A stretch of 64,000 nucleotides of DNA, taken from Vibrio sp. AND4 (GTDB lineage: Bacteria; Pseudomonadota; Gammaproteobacteria; Enterobacterales; Vibrionaceae). The stretch's first letter is position 1. Every line of letters starts with the position of its first letter. The stretch lies in assembly GCF_000171815.1 (NCBI RefSeq), contig NZ_ABGR01000001.1, positions 186,001 to 250,000 of the forward strand, given 5' to 3'. The position numbers were made by a program, and so were the translations under genes. Below the pieces are notes generated by a model that was not told where the DNA came from, ran no database searches, and saw only the letters and a program-made list of their open reading frames with translations. Below, in pieces: positions 36,592-62,432 of this stretch.

Positions 36592-38244
36592 TTAAGAAGC
36601 TCTGCATGTTTTAAAGATATCCAGTTTTCCGTCGTAAGCATTGGTTTCAATGTCCATTACACCCAGCAACGAGTGGAAAACATTATCGTGCGAATGCGTT
36701 TCCGTTTTCTGGGCTTCTTGCGCTAAGCAATCAGCATTGATGTGTTTGGCTTGTTTGAAGCCCGGTGACATCCAAAGCATCATAGGAACACGTTTTTGAA
36801 AGTCCGGAGCTAAGCCATACGGCATGCCATGTAAGAATAAGCCATTTTCGCCCAGAGATTCGCCGTGATCAGAGACGTAGATCAGAGCGGTATTGTATTT
36901 CTCCTCCAATGCTTTTAATTTCGCAATGGTTTTATCTAAGACAAAGTCTGTGTAGCGAATGGTATTATCGTAGGAGTTAACGATTTGCTCAACGCTGCAG
37001 TTTTCAATGTCTGCACGAGGACAGTCTGGTTGGAAAAACGCTTTGTCTTTTGGGTAGCGTTGGAAATACGTAGGACCATGGCTACCAATTAAATGCAATG
37101 CAACAATGCGGTTGCCTTGCATACTTTCGATTTGATCATCTAAGTTGTTTAACAATGCCATGTCATAACAGGTTCTGCCGTTGCACAATTCGTTTTTCTG
37201 GCTGCGGTCTACTTCGATCTTATGGATCTTATTTGCAACGCCTTTGTCACCACCATCGTTTTCTTTCCACAGTAAATCGATGCCCGCTCGCTGCATGATT
37301 TCCAAGGCATTATCTTGGTTATCCGCTTTACTCCGCTCAAAATCTCGGCGAGGCAGTTGAGAGAACATACAAGGTACAGAGACAGCGGTCGCCGTGCCGC
37401 AAGAAGAGACGTCTTGGAACGAAATTATATCTAATTTACTGGTGTATGGGTTGGTTTCACGTTCATAACCGTTGATTTGGTAATTCTGGGTACGTGCTGT
37501 CTCACCGACCACAAAGACGAGTAGCGTTGGCTTCTCTTTCGCTTGCTCTAGAGCCTGTTGGGATTGTTTGGCATCCGAACCTATTTCACGATATGGCTCT
37601 GGTGTTGTCAGATAGGTCTCTTTGACATAGCTAGAGATCGCATAAACAAACTGAGTGGGGATGATGACTTTTTTCAGGTAGCTATTGTTTCGACCGACAG
37701 ACGCATAATCTTGGTAATACAAGCTTGCAATCATTGCGATAACAGCCAACGACGCCAGCATTGATGCCACCTTAGTCAGGGTAAATCGAAGCCACTTGCC
37801 CTCTAAAGGTTTGAGTTTTATCTTAAAAACAAGAAACGCCGGGATAACACCCATCAATACTGTCCAGATGACCGAATAGGCACTTAAGTATGAGGTGGCT
37901 TCACTGCTGTCCGTCTCGGCAATGTTGGTGATCATGCCAGTATCAAAGAGGATACCGTAGTTGTAGCCAGCGTAACTCACCATGCTTGAGGTGATCAGCA
38001 GCAAGATAAAAAACGGCTTACTTATCCAAGGCCAACTAAATAGGTTGAATAAGAAGTTCAGTGCTGCAAAAAAGAAGATTGGAATCGTAATAATGAAACC
38101 GATCTTCACTTGCTCCAGACTCGAGAAAATGTGTACTAGCTGTTCGTAAATCGGGATGTTTACTACAAGAGCAAAGTACAAAGCGAGTAAAAGTGTAAAG
38201 GTAACGTGTGAGAGACCTTTGGTTGGGAATTCAATTGTCTTCAT
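36592..38244 (-). CDS. eptA: Lipid A phosphoethanolamine transferase EptA-like
   Basis: 550 aa from ATG at 38244 (MKTIEFPTKGLSHVTFTLLL); the longest frame adds 14 residues. Five N-terminal membrane helices (to about residue 185), then a periplasmic sulfatase-fold domain. VVGETARTQNYQINGY contains the catalytic Thr nucleophile, with further metal ligands in YVSDHGESLGENG and LHLIGSHGP. It moves phosphoethanolamine from phosphatidylethanolamine to lipid A, lowering polymyxin binding. The by-product diacylglycerol is the substrate of the dgkA gene 20 bases upstream. Confidence 0.9.
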   Translation of the reverse strand: MKTIEFPTKGLSHVTFTLLLALYFALVVNIPIYEQLVHIFSSLEQVKIGFIITIPIFFFAALNFLFNLFSWPWISKPFFILLLITSSMVSYAGYNYGILFDTGMITNIAETDSSEATSYLSAYSVIWTVLMGVIPAFLVFKIKLKPLEGKWLRFTLTKVASMLASLAVIAMIASLYYQDYASVGRNNSYLKKVIIPTQFVYAISSYVKETYLTTPEPYREIGSDAKQSQQALEQAKEKPTLLVFVVGETARTQNYQINGYERETNPYTSKLDIISFQDVSSCGTATAVSVPCMFSQLPRRDFERSKADNQDNALEIMQRAGIDLLWKENDGGDKGVANKIHKIEVDRSQKNELCNGRTCYDMALLNNLDDQIESMQGNRIVALHLIGSHGPTYFQRYPKDKAFFQPDCPRADIENCSVEQIVNSYDNTIRYTDFVLDKTIAKLKALEEKYNTALIYVSDHGESLGENGLFLHGMPYGLAPDFQKRVPMMLWMSPGFKQAKHINADCLAQEAQKTETHSHDNVFHSLLGVMDIETNAYDGKLDIFKTCRAS

Positions 38245-38264
38245 GATAATTCTGCTCAGGGTGA

Positions 38265-38621
38265 CTAAATTAGAATCGATGCCCAAACAAATAGGGCAAG
38301 AACAAGCGCAACAAATACGGCTGCAGAACCTATGTCTTTGGCCCTTCCACTGAGCTCATGCCAGTCATCGCTGACACGATCGACAACCGCTTCGACGGCG
38401 GAGTTAAGTAATTCAACGATGACAACGAGCAATAGGCTGCTGATCATCAATGTTCGTTCGAGCATGGTCACAGGAAGCAAGAATGCACAGATAGAAAGTA
38501 CGAGTGTAAGTACCAGTTCTTGTCTGAAAGCGGCTTCGTGAATCCATGCTGCTTTCAATCCTTGAAATGAGTAGCCGGTGGCGTCCAATATCCGGCGAAT
38601 GCCTGTTTTACCTGGTTTCAA
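38265..38621 (-). CDS. dgkA: Diacylglycerol kinase DgkA
   Basis: 118 aa (E. coli 121), three membrane helices. EAAFRQELVLTLVLSICAF and the catalytic ELLNSAVEAVVDRVSDDWHEL with KDIGSAAVFVAL are the DgkA signature. It phosphorylates diacylglycerol to phosphatidate at the inner membrane, recycling the by-product of EptA. Co-transcribed with eptA. Confidence 0.94.
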   Translation of the reverse strand: MKPGKTGIRRILDATGYSFQGLKAAWIHEAAFRQELVLTLVLSICAFLLPVTMLERTLMISSLLLVVIVELLNSAVEAVVDRVSDDWHELSGRAKDIGSAAVFVALVLALFVWASILI

Positions 38622-45518: not shown

Positions 45519-45520
45519 CA

Positions 45521-45627
45521 AAAAAAAACCAACCGCAAGAGGTGCGACTGGTTTATATATTTGTGAACAAAATTAAGTTCACTAACAACGTCAGTTGGCT
45601 AGGTGACCCTCGGCTTAAGAAGGGTCA
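45521..45627 (-). ncRNA. qrr: Qrr-family quorum-regulatory small RNA
   Basis: About 107 nt on the minus strand. The 5' hairpin uses GACCCTTC and GAGGGTC. Then comes the Qrr core GGGTCACCTAGCCAACTGAC followed by GTTGTTAGTGAAC, which in known Qrrs pairs with luxR/hapR-type and other mRNAs with help of Hfq. An AT-rich linker and a Rho-independent terminator follow (ACCAGTCGCA-N5-TGCGGTTGGT, then nine T). A sigma-54 promoter and two LuxO boxes lie upstream. The copy number (Qrr2-5) cannot be assigned here. Confidence 0.95.
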
Positions 45628-45636
45628 ACATCAATA

Positions 45637-45654
45637 ATGCAGTTAGTATGCCAA
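45637..45654 (-). promoter_or_regulatory. Sigma-54 promoter of qrr
   Basis: TTGGCA-N7-TGCAT on the minus strand with GG and GC at -24/-12 spacing; predicted start at 45627-45626, exactly at the 5' end of the Qrr sequence. Confidence 0.92.
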
Positions 45655-45714
45655 CTTTTAATTTGGGGAAAAACACGGTTTTTGTGATAAAAGTTGCGTA
45701 ATTTTTGCTACTTG

Positions 45715-45740
45715 TTGCAAATTGCAATTGCATAATGCAA
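45715..45740. promoter_or_regulatory. Two tandem LuxO binding sites
   Basis: TTGCAAATTGCAA (45715-45727) directly followed by TTGCATAATGCAA (45728-45740). Both match TTGCA-W3-TGCAA perfectly. They sit about 60-85 bases upstream of the sigma-54 promoter, as at other qrr genes, and 49 bases past the mgtE stop. Phospho-LuxO at low cell density activates transcription from here. Confidence 0.93.
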
Positions 45741-45788
45741 CAATTGGTTATAATGCTAATAACTAATTGATTAATGAGGTCAATTGGT

Positions 45789-47135
45789 TCACAACATGAC
45801 TACGCTCGCCGTGCCCAAGAAGGCAAAGAAGCCAACAACGTCGGTTACCGTGGTTAGGATGACAGAACCTGCAAGCGCGGGATCAAGCTTGAGCTTGCCT
45901 AGAACAATAGGAATAACAACACCGAATAAAGCCGCAGTTACAATATTGACGATGATTGCGAGTGCAATGGTGGCACCCAACACATGAGATTGGAACCAAA
46001 GCCCAGCTAACCCACCGATGATGAGTGCCCAAAGTAAGGCGTTGAGAGTGCCAATACCCAGTTCATTTTTGAGTAGAGCAAAGCGGTTACCGGGCGTGAT
46101 TTGGTTTAATGCCATAGCACGAACCATGAGTGTGAGTGTTTGGCTTCCGGCAATTCCCCCCATTGAAGCCACAATCGGCATCAGAACAGCAAGTGCGACC
46201 ACTTGTGAAATCACATCTTCAAATAAGCCAATAGTCACAGATGCCAAGATCGCTGTGAGTAAGTTGATACCCAACCACACTCCACGTTTTTGTGAGCTTT
46301 TTAGTATTGGCGCGAATAAGTCATCGCCTTCATCCATACCGGTACCAGCCATTAATCGTGCTTCGTATATTTCACGTTGTGTGCTGAGTGCAAATTGCCA
46401 ATCTACTTCACCAATTAAGGTCTGATCGGAATCGATAACGGGTAAAGAGGGAAGTGGACTATGTTCTAATGCTTCAACGGCTTCAGCCAGTTCCATCTTA
46501 CCATCAAGAACGGTAACGGCATGAATGGTTAGTGTGCTTAACCTTATGTCCGATTCGCTGCGCAAAATCTCGTAATAGTTGACCACACCACGAAACTGTT
46601 TTTTACGGTTGATCAAATATACCTGTTGAGGTGTATCGTAACTGTAACGCTCCATCAAACGTCGAGCTTTACCTACGGAAATAGTATAAGGCAGGGTGAT
46701 GACTTTTCGTTCAGCCCAACGGCCCAGTTCTATGTCTTCATATTCGTTTGCTTGGTCATAGAGATCGAGCTCATCTTTCTCAATCAGTTCTAATGCTTCA
46801 TTTATGAAGTCTTCGGGCAGAGAATCCGCCCATTCAATCAGGGATAAATTATCTAGCTTGGCTAAGGTTAGTTTCAGCTCAACCTCGGAAAGCGCTTCAA
46901 TGATAGAAAGACGTACTTCGGCACGCATTTCGGTCAGCACATCGATGTGCAGTTCCATTGGTAATGCGCGCCACAAGCGTACGCGATCATCGATGGGGAA
47001 CGCCTCAAGGATCAGTGCGATGGCACCGGGCTCGAGACCGCATTCGATGGAATCATTCAAAGCGGTAACTTGATCCACTTCGTCTACTTGGACAATTTGT
47101 TCGATTAGAGTGGAGAGGTCTTGAAACTTACTCAC
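45789..47135 (-). CDS. mgtE: Magnesium transporter MgtE
   Basis: 448 aa. N-terminal MgtE helical domain (residues 1-130), two CBS domains (about 135-255, with AVTVLDGKMELAEAVEAL), then five membrane helices with PIVASMGGIAGSQTLTLMVRA and the ion-site VIPIVLGKLKLDPALAGSVI. Imports Mg2+ and is gated by cytosolic Mg2+ through the N and CBS domains. Its stop lies just before the LuxO boxes of qrr. Single gene. Confidence 0.94.
   Translation of the reverse strand: MSKFQDLSTLIEQIVQVDEVDQVTALNDSIECGLEPGAIALILEAFPIDDRVRLWRALPMELHIDVLTEMRAEVRLSIIEALSEVELKLTLAKLDNLSLIEWADSLPEDFINEALELIEKDELDLYDQANEYEDIELGRWAERKVITLPYTISVGKARRLMERYSYDTPQQVYLINRKKQFRGVVNYYEILRSESDIRLSTLTIHAVTVLDGKMELAEAVEALEHSPLPSLPVIDSDQTLIGEVDWQFALSTQREIYEARLMAGTGMDEGDDLFAPILKSSQKRGVWLGINLLTAILASVTIGLFEDVISQVVALAVLMPIVASMGGIAGSQTLTLMVRAMALNQITPGNRFALLKNELGIGTLNALLWALIIGGLAGLWFQSHVLGATIALAIIVNIVTAALFGVVIPIVLGKLKLDPALAGSVILTTVTDVVGFFAFLGTASVVML

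Positions 47136-61334: not shown

Positions 61335-62431
<1,097 letters not shown>

Positions 62432-62432
<1 letters not shown>

Follow-up and report, generated by a model that had tools for sequence, protein, structure and literature searches.

Qrr small RNAs are described as pairing, with the help of Hfq, with mRNAs such as luxR, luxO and aphA (PMC3262071, in the sections available), and a role of Hfq with Qrr also appears in the available sections of PMC3323551 and PMC11443567. The closest described genes to the locus considered here are the qrr3 genes of V. harveyi ATCC BAA-1116 (V. campbellii) and V. parahaemolyticus RIMD 2210633. Table 2 of PMC3323551 places a LuxR box, AGTTAATTAATTCATCATTA, at −151 to −132 of V. 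harveyi qrr3 and an OpaR box, TGTTTATTAATCAATCATTA, at −150 to −131 of V. parahaemolyticus qrr3, in the VPA1240–1241 intergenic region. For the latter gene the available text of the same paper reports that the transcription start was mapped by primer extension, that OpaR leaves a footprint from 154 to 125 bp upstream and that it activates the gene. LuxO sites in tandem had already been described for 61 qrr enhancers (available part of PMC4740811), and V. fluvialis qrr4 has close LuxO sites that are jointly needed (available part of PMC11443567).

A Qrr gene of the qrr3 type

The window, that is, the whole 64-kb stretch of Vibrio sp. AND4 DNA that was analysed, had been proposed in an earlier note to carry a Qrr gene on its minus strand. 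A covariance search with the Qrr family model RF00378 bore this out, with a match at 45627–45519 (minus strand) scoring 104.4 bits against a gathering cut-off of 50 (E 4.8e-19) and spanning positions 1–108 of the 108-position model. The predicted RNA of 109 nt (45519–45627) folds at −33.9 kcal/mol (z −4.66), a value equalled by none of 200 shuffles. It contains the conserved core CCUAGCCAACUGACGUUGUUAGUGAA, unchanged, and ends in an intrinsic terminator (45526–45554, minus strand) with a 12-bp stem followed by a T run; nine T stand after the last GG, the number that the earlier note had given. Compared with the family as a whole (Qrr1–5), the match is full-length and the differences lie within normal variation, while the RNA is longer than those of the qrr1 type (92–97 nt).

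The promoter region is equally well formed. A putative sigma-54 −24/−12 promoter of the GG-N10-GC form, TTGGCATACTAACTGCA, occupies 45638–45654 (minus strand), its GG falling at −25/−24. A pattern search for the perfect LuxO box, TTGCA-N3-TGCAA, found exactly two copies within the 64 kb, box 1 (TTGCATTATGCAA, 45740–45728, start −113) and box 2 (TTGCAATTTGCAA, 45727–45715, start −100), both on the minus strand and abutting with zero spacing. The boxes and the promoter stand at the set Qrr distances. Every element that the earlier note had named is found on this strand, and its view of a Qrr gene of LuxO/sigma-54 architecture is supported.

Which Qrr gene this is had been left to be assigned, and the genomes of relatives supplied the answer. 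The published V. harveyi box AGTTAATTAATTCATCATTA is found letter for letter, starting at −150, before the mgtE-adjacent qrr gene of genome G190 (L190), and again before the mgtE-adjacent qrr genes of V. jasicida (L006) and the V. harveyi type strain (L007). The V. parahaemolyticus box TGTTTATTAATCAATCATTA is likewise found letter for letter, starting at −150, before the mgtE-adjacent qrr gene of genome G126 (L202). Published and observed positions agree within 1 bp, and the two-base-changed qrr3 site given in the available part of PMC2680268 differs from the sites of L006, L007 and L190 at exactly two positions. Of 19 qrr genes from the genomes G190, G126, G217 and G199, L190 and L202 gave the best alignments to the window gene. 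On these grounds, and by way of the relatives' genomes, sequence comparison identifies the window gene as the qrr3 orthologue of Harveyi-type vibrios.

With the published qrr3 genes it shares the Qrr core and the sigma-54 promoter. In the window, a candidate LuxR/OpaR box (45757–45777, minus strand) occupies the place of the published one, at about −150 to −131, and is more degenerate, matching the consensus at 14 of 21 positions, a score reached in 5.5% of 200 shuffles that preserved base composition only. The LuxO boxes differ too: both are perfect in the window, whereas in the V. harveyi type strain (L007) the pair, which abuts as well, consists of a perfect box and a second one carrying two mismatches.

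The assembly of the organism (91% complete) holds four Qrr genes, and no fifth was found in this incomplete assembly. A 92-nt Qrr on contig C131 lies beside the genes for LuxO (NF041946, 871 bits) and LuxU, which is the qrr1 arrangement. Judged from alignment and published boxes, the copy on C141, beside malT, looks like qrr2, and the copy on C105 is most likely qrr4. Elsewhere, in the set of 296 genomes from which the comparison below was drawn, four same-genus genomes (G151, G153, G168 and G208) carry eight Qrr genes each and one (G294) carries nine, more than the one, four or five reported in 2012 for Vibrionaceae species (PMC3262071, in the sections available).

A qrr3 gene in a genome with several Qrr genes might be a decaying, redundant copy that contributes little, as has been suggested for Qrr5. 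Decay and loss do occur at this position in relatives. G202 has no Qrr beside mgtE although mgtE, HlyD, AraC and ribB are all present, so the gene was lost and its neighbourhood kept. Vibrio sp. PID17_43 (L008, 11345–11550) retains a Qrr RNA 105 bp behind mgtE, but the gap holds neither GG-N10-GC nor a LuxO box (the best site has four mismatches), and with a changed base in the core this qrr3 body is apparently a decaying copy. In the window gene, by contrast, no part is damaged: both LuxO boxes are perfect, the core is unchanged and the terminator is strong. The published record of qrr3 also speaks against decay: the V. parahaemolyticus gene has its mapped start (available part of PMC3323551), and a qrr3–gfp fusion is responsive to LuxR in an E. 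coli strain with luxO D47E (available part of PMC2680268). We regard a decaying window gene as quite improbable. As a separate observation on G202 (L263, 2375–8916, C2), most of the luxP block is kept there, and an mgtE terminator lies right after the stop codon.

LuxO box spacing across qrr genes

The earlier note had singled out the zero spacing of the two LuxO sites as unusual for a qrr promoter. This was examined in 146 qrr genes from 38 hand-picked genomes, namely the organism's own and 37 same-genus genomes, drawn from 296, that were assembled in 2–5 contigs and gave a Qrr match. Each of the 38 has two to five Qrr genes, genomes with one or with six or more having been left out; 112 of the genes are of non-qrr1 types and 34 of the short qrr1 type. 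The GG-N10-GC element lies at −25 in 144 of the 146; one of the remaining two has it at −26, and in the other it was not found.

Abutting boxes, which start 13 bp apart, proved to be common. Allowing at most one mismatch per box, 60 of the 112 non-qrr1 genes have such a pair, and with at most two mismatches the count rises to 81. The next commonest spacing, 7 bp, accounts for 5 and 37 of the same 112 genes at the two thresholds. Shuffled promoters gave a mean of 0 pairs at 13 bp with at most two mismatches (20 mononucleotide rounds, preserving base composition only). Near-identical promoters are not the cause of the excess, because 58 of 110 genes still have the pair after identical stretches from −160 to −80 are collapsed. 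Zero spacing is thus the commonest LuxO arrangement of the non-qrr1 genes, and the supposed peculiarity disappears. The qrr1-type genes are different, none of the 34 having the 13-bp pair and 32 having a perfect box.

What is rare is perfection of both sites: two perfect abutting boxes occur in 2 of the 146 genes, the window gene (L211) and L194, both at the qrr3 position. Among the 112 non-qrr1 promoters, pairs start mostly at −114/−113 (44) or at −135 (10). These positions differ by about two helical turns, in agreement with the helical spacing of LuxO sites described in the available part of PMC4740811. The window promoter resembles the enhancers of PMC4740811 and PMC11443567 in having two neighbouring LuxO sites before one sigma-54 promoter; in their available sections those papers speak of tandem or close sites, and do not state the exact 13-bp register counted here. 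A different arrangement was seen in G173, where the promoter of one qrr gene (L116, C2 678352) carries three overlapping perfect LuxO boxes in 7-bp steps.

The mgtE neighbour

Immediately upstream of qrr3, on the same strand, lies a gene for an MgtE-type magnesium transporter (45789–47135, minus strand). Its product exceeds the Pfam cut-offs for MgtE and MgtE_N and scores 187.1 bits with TIGR00400, under that model's NCBIfam equivalog cut-off of 232.75. The stop codon is 161 bp upstream of the Qrr3 RNA, and the adjacency described in the earlier note is real. An mgtE orthologue (at least 66% identical) is present in 15 of the 38 genomes. In 11 of them a qrr gene follows the end of the protein match at a distance of 153–351 bp, in two it follows at 4.1–4.2 kb, and in two no qrr lies near. 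The close pair occurs in named species such as V. owensii, V. jasicida, V. harveyi, V. salilacus, V. pacinii and V. atypicus. The mgtE–qrr3 link is old; a search of the open-licence literature found no printed qrr3–mgtE or qrr4–mgtE link.

Other features were noted in the window. An FMN riboswitch (44717–44576, minus strand, 120.3 bits) precedes ribB (44401–43745), and a malK-II RNA motif (59.3 bits) lies at 2025–1976 (minus strand). An EptA-type phosphoethanolamine–lipid A transferase is encoded at 36592–38286 (minus strand), near a sensor kinase gene; it scores above the general family cut-off and under every MCR cut-off listed.

The adjacency invites the idea that qrr3 is functionally joined to mgtE, with mgtE transcripts crossing the LuxO enhancer and the Qrr body to end at the Qrr terminator, which would yield some LuxO-independent Qrr3 or interfere with the Qrr promoter. 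In a terminator scan, the qrr3 terminator is the first terminator-like site downstream of the mgtE stop codon. The comparison was extended to 32 loci, comprising 20 of 80 mgtE loci (L005–L026 minus L014 and L025), the window and 11 further loci from the surveyed genomes, some of them close relatives; 18 have a close qrr gene and 14 do not. In none of the 18 close pairs did the scan find an intrinsic terminator between mgtE and the Qrr start (gap 105–166 bp), whereas it found one within 160 nt for 7 of the 14 mgtE genes without a close qrr (Fisher P 0.001, not corrected for relatedness). Moreover, mgtE has its own terminator in G202, where qrr is lost, and in G195 and G199, where the gap is about 350 bp.

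Several results weaken this argument. Overall, the scan assigns a terminator within 160 nt to only 59 of 196 gene ends (37 of 126 when an opposite-strand gene comes next; 22 of 70 for tandem genes with a gap of at least 150 bp). It also overlooked the Qrr terminator of L005, and a missing mgtE terminator therefore means little. If the 18 pairs represent about eight independent lineages, which is a guess, the chance of finding none is 0.06. Terminators are also lacking in 41 of 67 gaps that separate other qrr genes from a co-directional open frame of at least 100 codons, and the lack is therefore not special to mgtE. Rho-dependent termination of mgtE would, in addition, be invisible to the scan. 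The scan's low detection rate and the missed L005 terminator were the reasons for giving up any strong claim of a terminator common to mgtE and qrr3.

We consider a functional joining of the two genes doubtful and read-through from mgtE into qrr3 unlikely. The fuller proposal, that qrr3 doubles as the mgtE 3′ end and that read-through over the LuxO enhancer acts as a second, LuxO-independent source of Qrr3 or as promoter interference tied to magnesium transport, is likewise improbable. If read-through from mgtE did take place, it would be the only part of the finding that adds an input to the circuit, and the lack of terminators before other qrr genes would make it a general habit of qrr genes.

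Distance to luxPQ and the predicted circuit

The earlier note had placed the qrr gene within 17 kb of luxPQ and had seen in this a linkage of input and output of one circuit. The distance holds, for luxP (61335–62432, plus strand), which would encode the AI-2 binding protein, begins 15.7 kb from qrr3. Its product belongs to the periplasmic binding protein family and matched no luxP-specific model; the gene is named luxP because a LuxQ gene (NF041947, 1277 bits against a cut-off of 1200) follows at once. In V. parahaemolyticus, we take luxPQ to be VPA1220–1221.

The meaning given to the distance did not survive the comparison. With distances taken linearly along each contig, 22 of the 38 genomes have a qrr gene within 50 kb of luxP, and in the other 16 even the nearest one lies over 100 kb from it. 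Selection might maintain the closeness, input and output profiting from being neighbours, and the 22 genomes are what can be said for it. All 22 luxP-near genes, however, have neighbours of the window qrr (homology rows below 50% identity were dropped from this comparison): six have mgtE, fifteen have HlyD and AraC but no mgtE, and one (G025) has only the amino-acid transporter. The stretch towards luxP was examined in seven of the 22 (the window, G171, G190, G126, G217, G199 and G195), and the genes held in common there follow a single order, as expected of one ancestral block. Selection for proximity is further opposed by the range of the distance itself, 14 to 50 kb, by seven more genomes in which the qrr3 neighbourhood is kept and luxP lies more than 100 kb off, and by the step that joins input to output, luxO–luxU with qrr1, which sits on another contig of the draft assembly. 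We judge such selection highly improbable. The idea of luxPQ and qrr as a designed cluster was likewise rejected in view of the shared neighbours, the single gene order and the genomes with distant genes. The simplest account is that the closeness of luxPQ and qrr3 goes back to a single ancestral gene order that has been preserved in some clades and broken up in others.

Genes for LuxP, LuxQ, LuxU and LuxO are all present in the genome, and we hold it almost certain that the window gene is a qrr3 orthologue, predicted to act as a circuit RNA driven by LuxO and sigma-54. In this reading the RNA family, promoter parts, orthology and conservation are taken from the sequence, and the dependence on LuxO, sigma-54 and Hfq, the looping and the targets are carried over by analogy with the described systems. 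At low cell density, phosphate would pass from the AI-2 receptor LuxPQ, and from other receptors, via LuxU to LuxO. Phospho-LuxO would then bind the abutting boxes at −113 and −100 and loop to the sigma-54 polymerase at −24/−12, transcription of Qrr3 starting at about 45627. The 109-nt, presumably Hfq-dependent RNA would use its conserved core to pair with mRNAs such as luxR, luxO and aphA. A strict pattern search of the organism's own genome for long complementarity to the core returned nothing but the four qrr genes. The degenerate LuxR/OpaR box, which lies just upstream of the LuxO boxes, probably mediates the feedback on qrr3 that has been published for the master regulator.

Taken as a whole, the window locus is a real, well-formed and ordinary gene of a known family and a known subtype. 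The analysis settles which Qrr it encodes and removes two supposed oddities, the zero spacing of the LuxO sites and the location of the gene. For the family it yields a usable rule, in that the 13-bp, zero-spacing register is found in just over half of the non-qrr1 promoters and in none of the qrr1 type, and this rule could inform mutational work on the assembly of LuxO at its enhancer.
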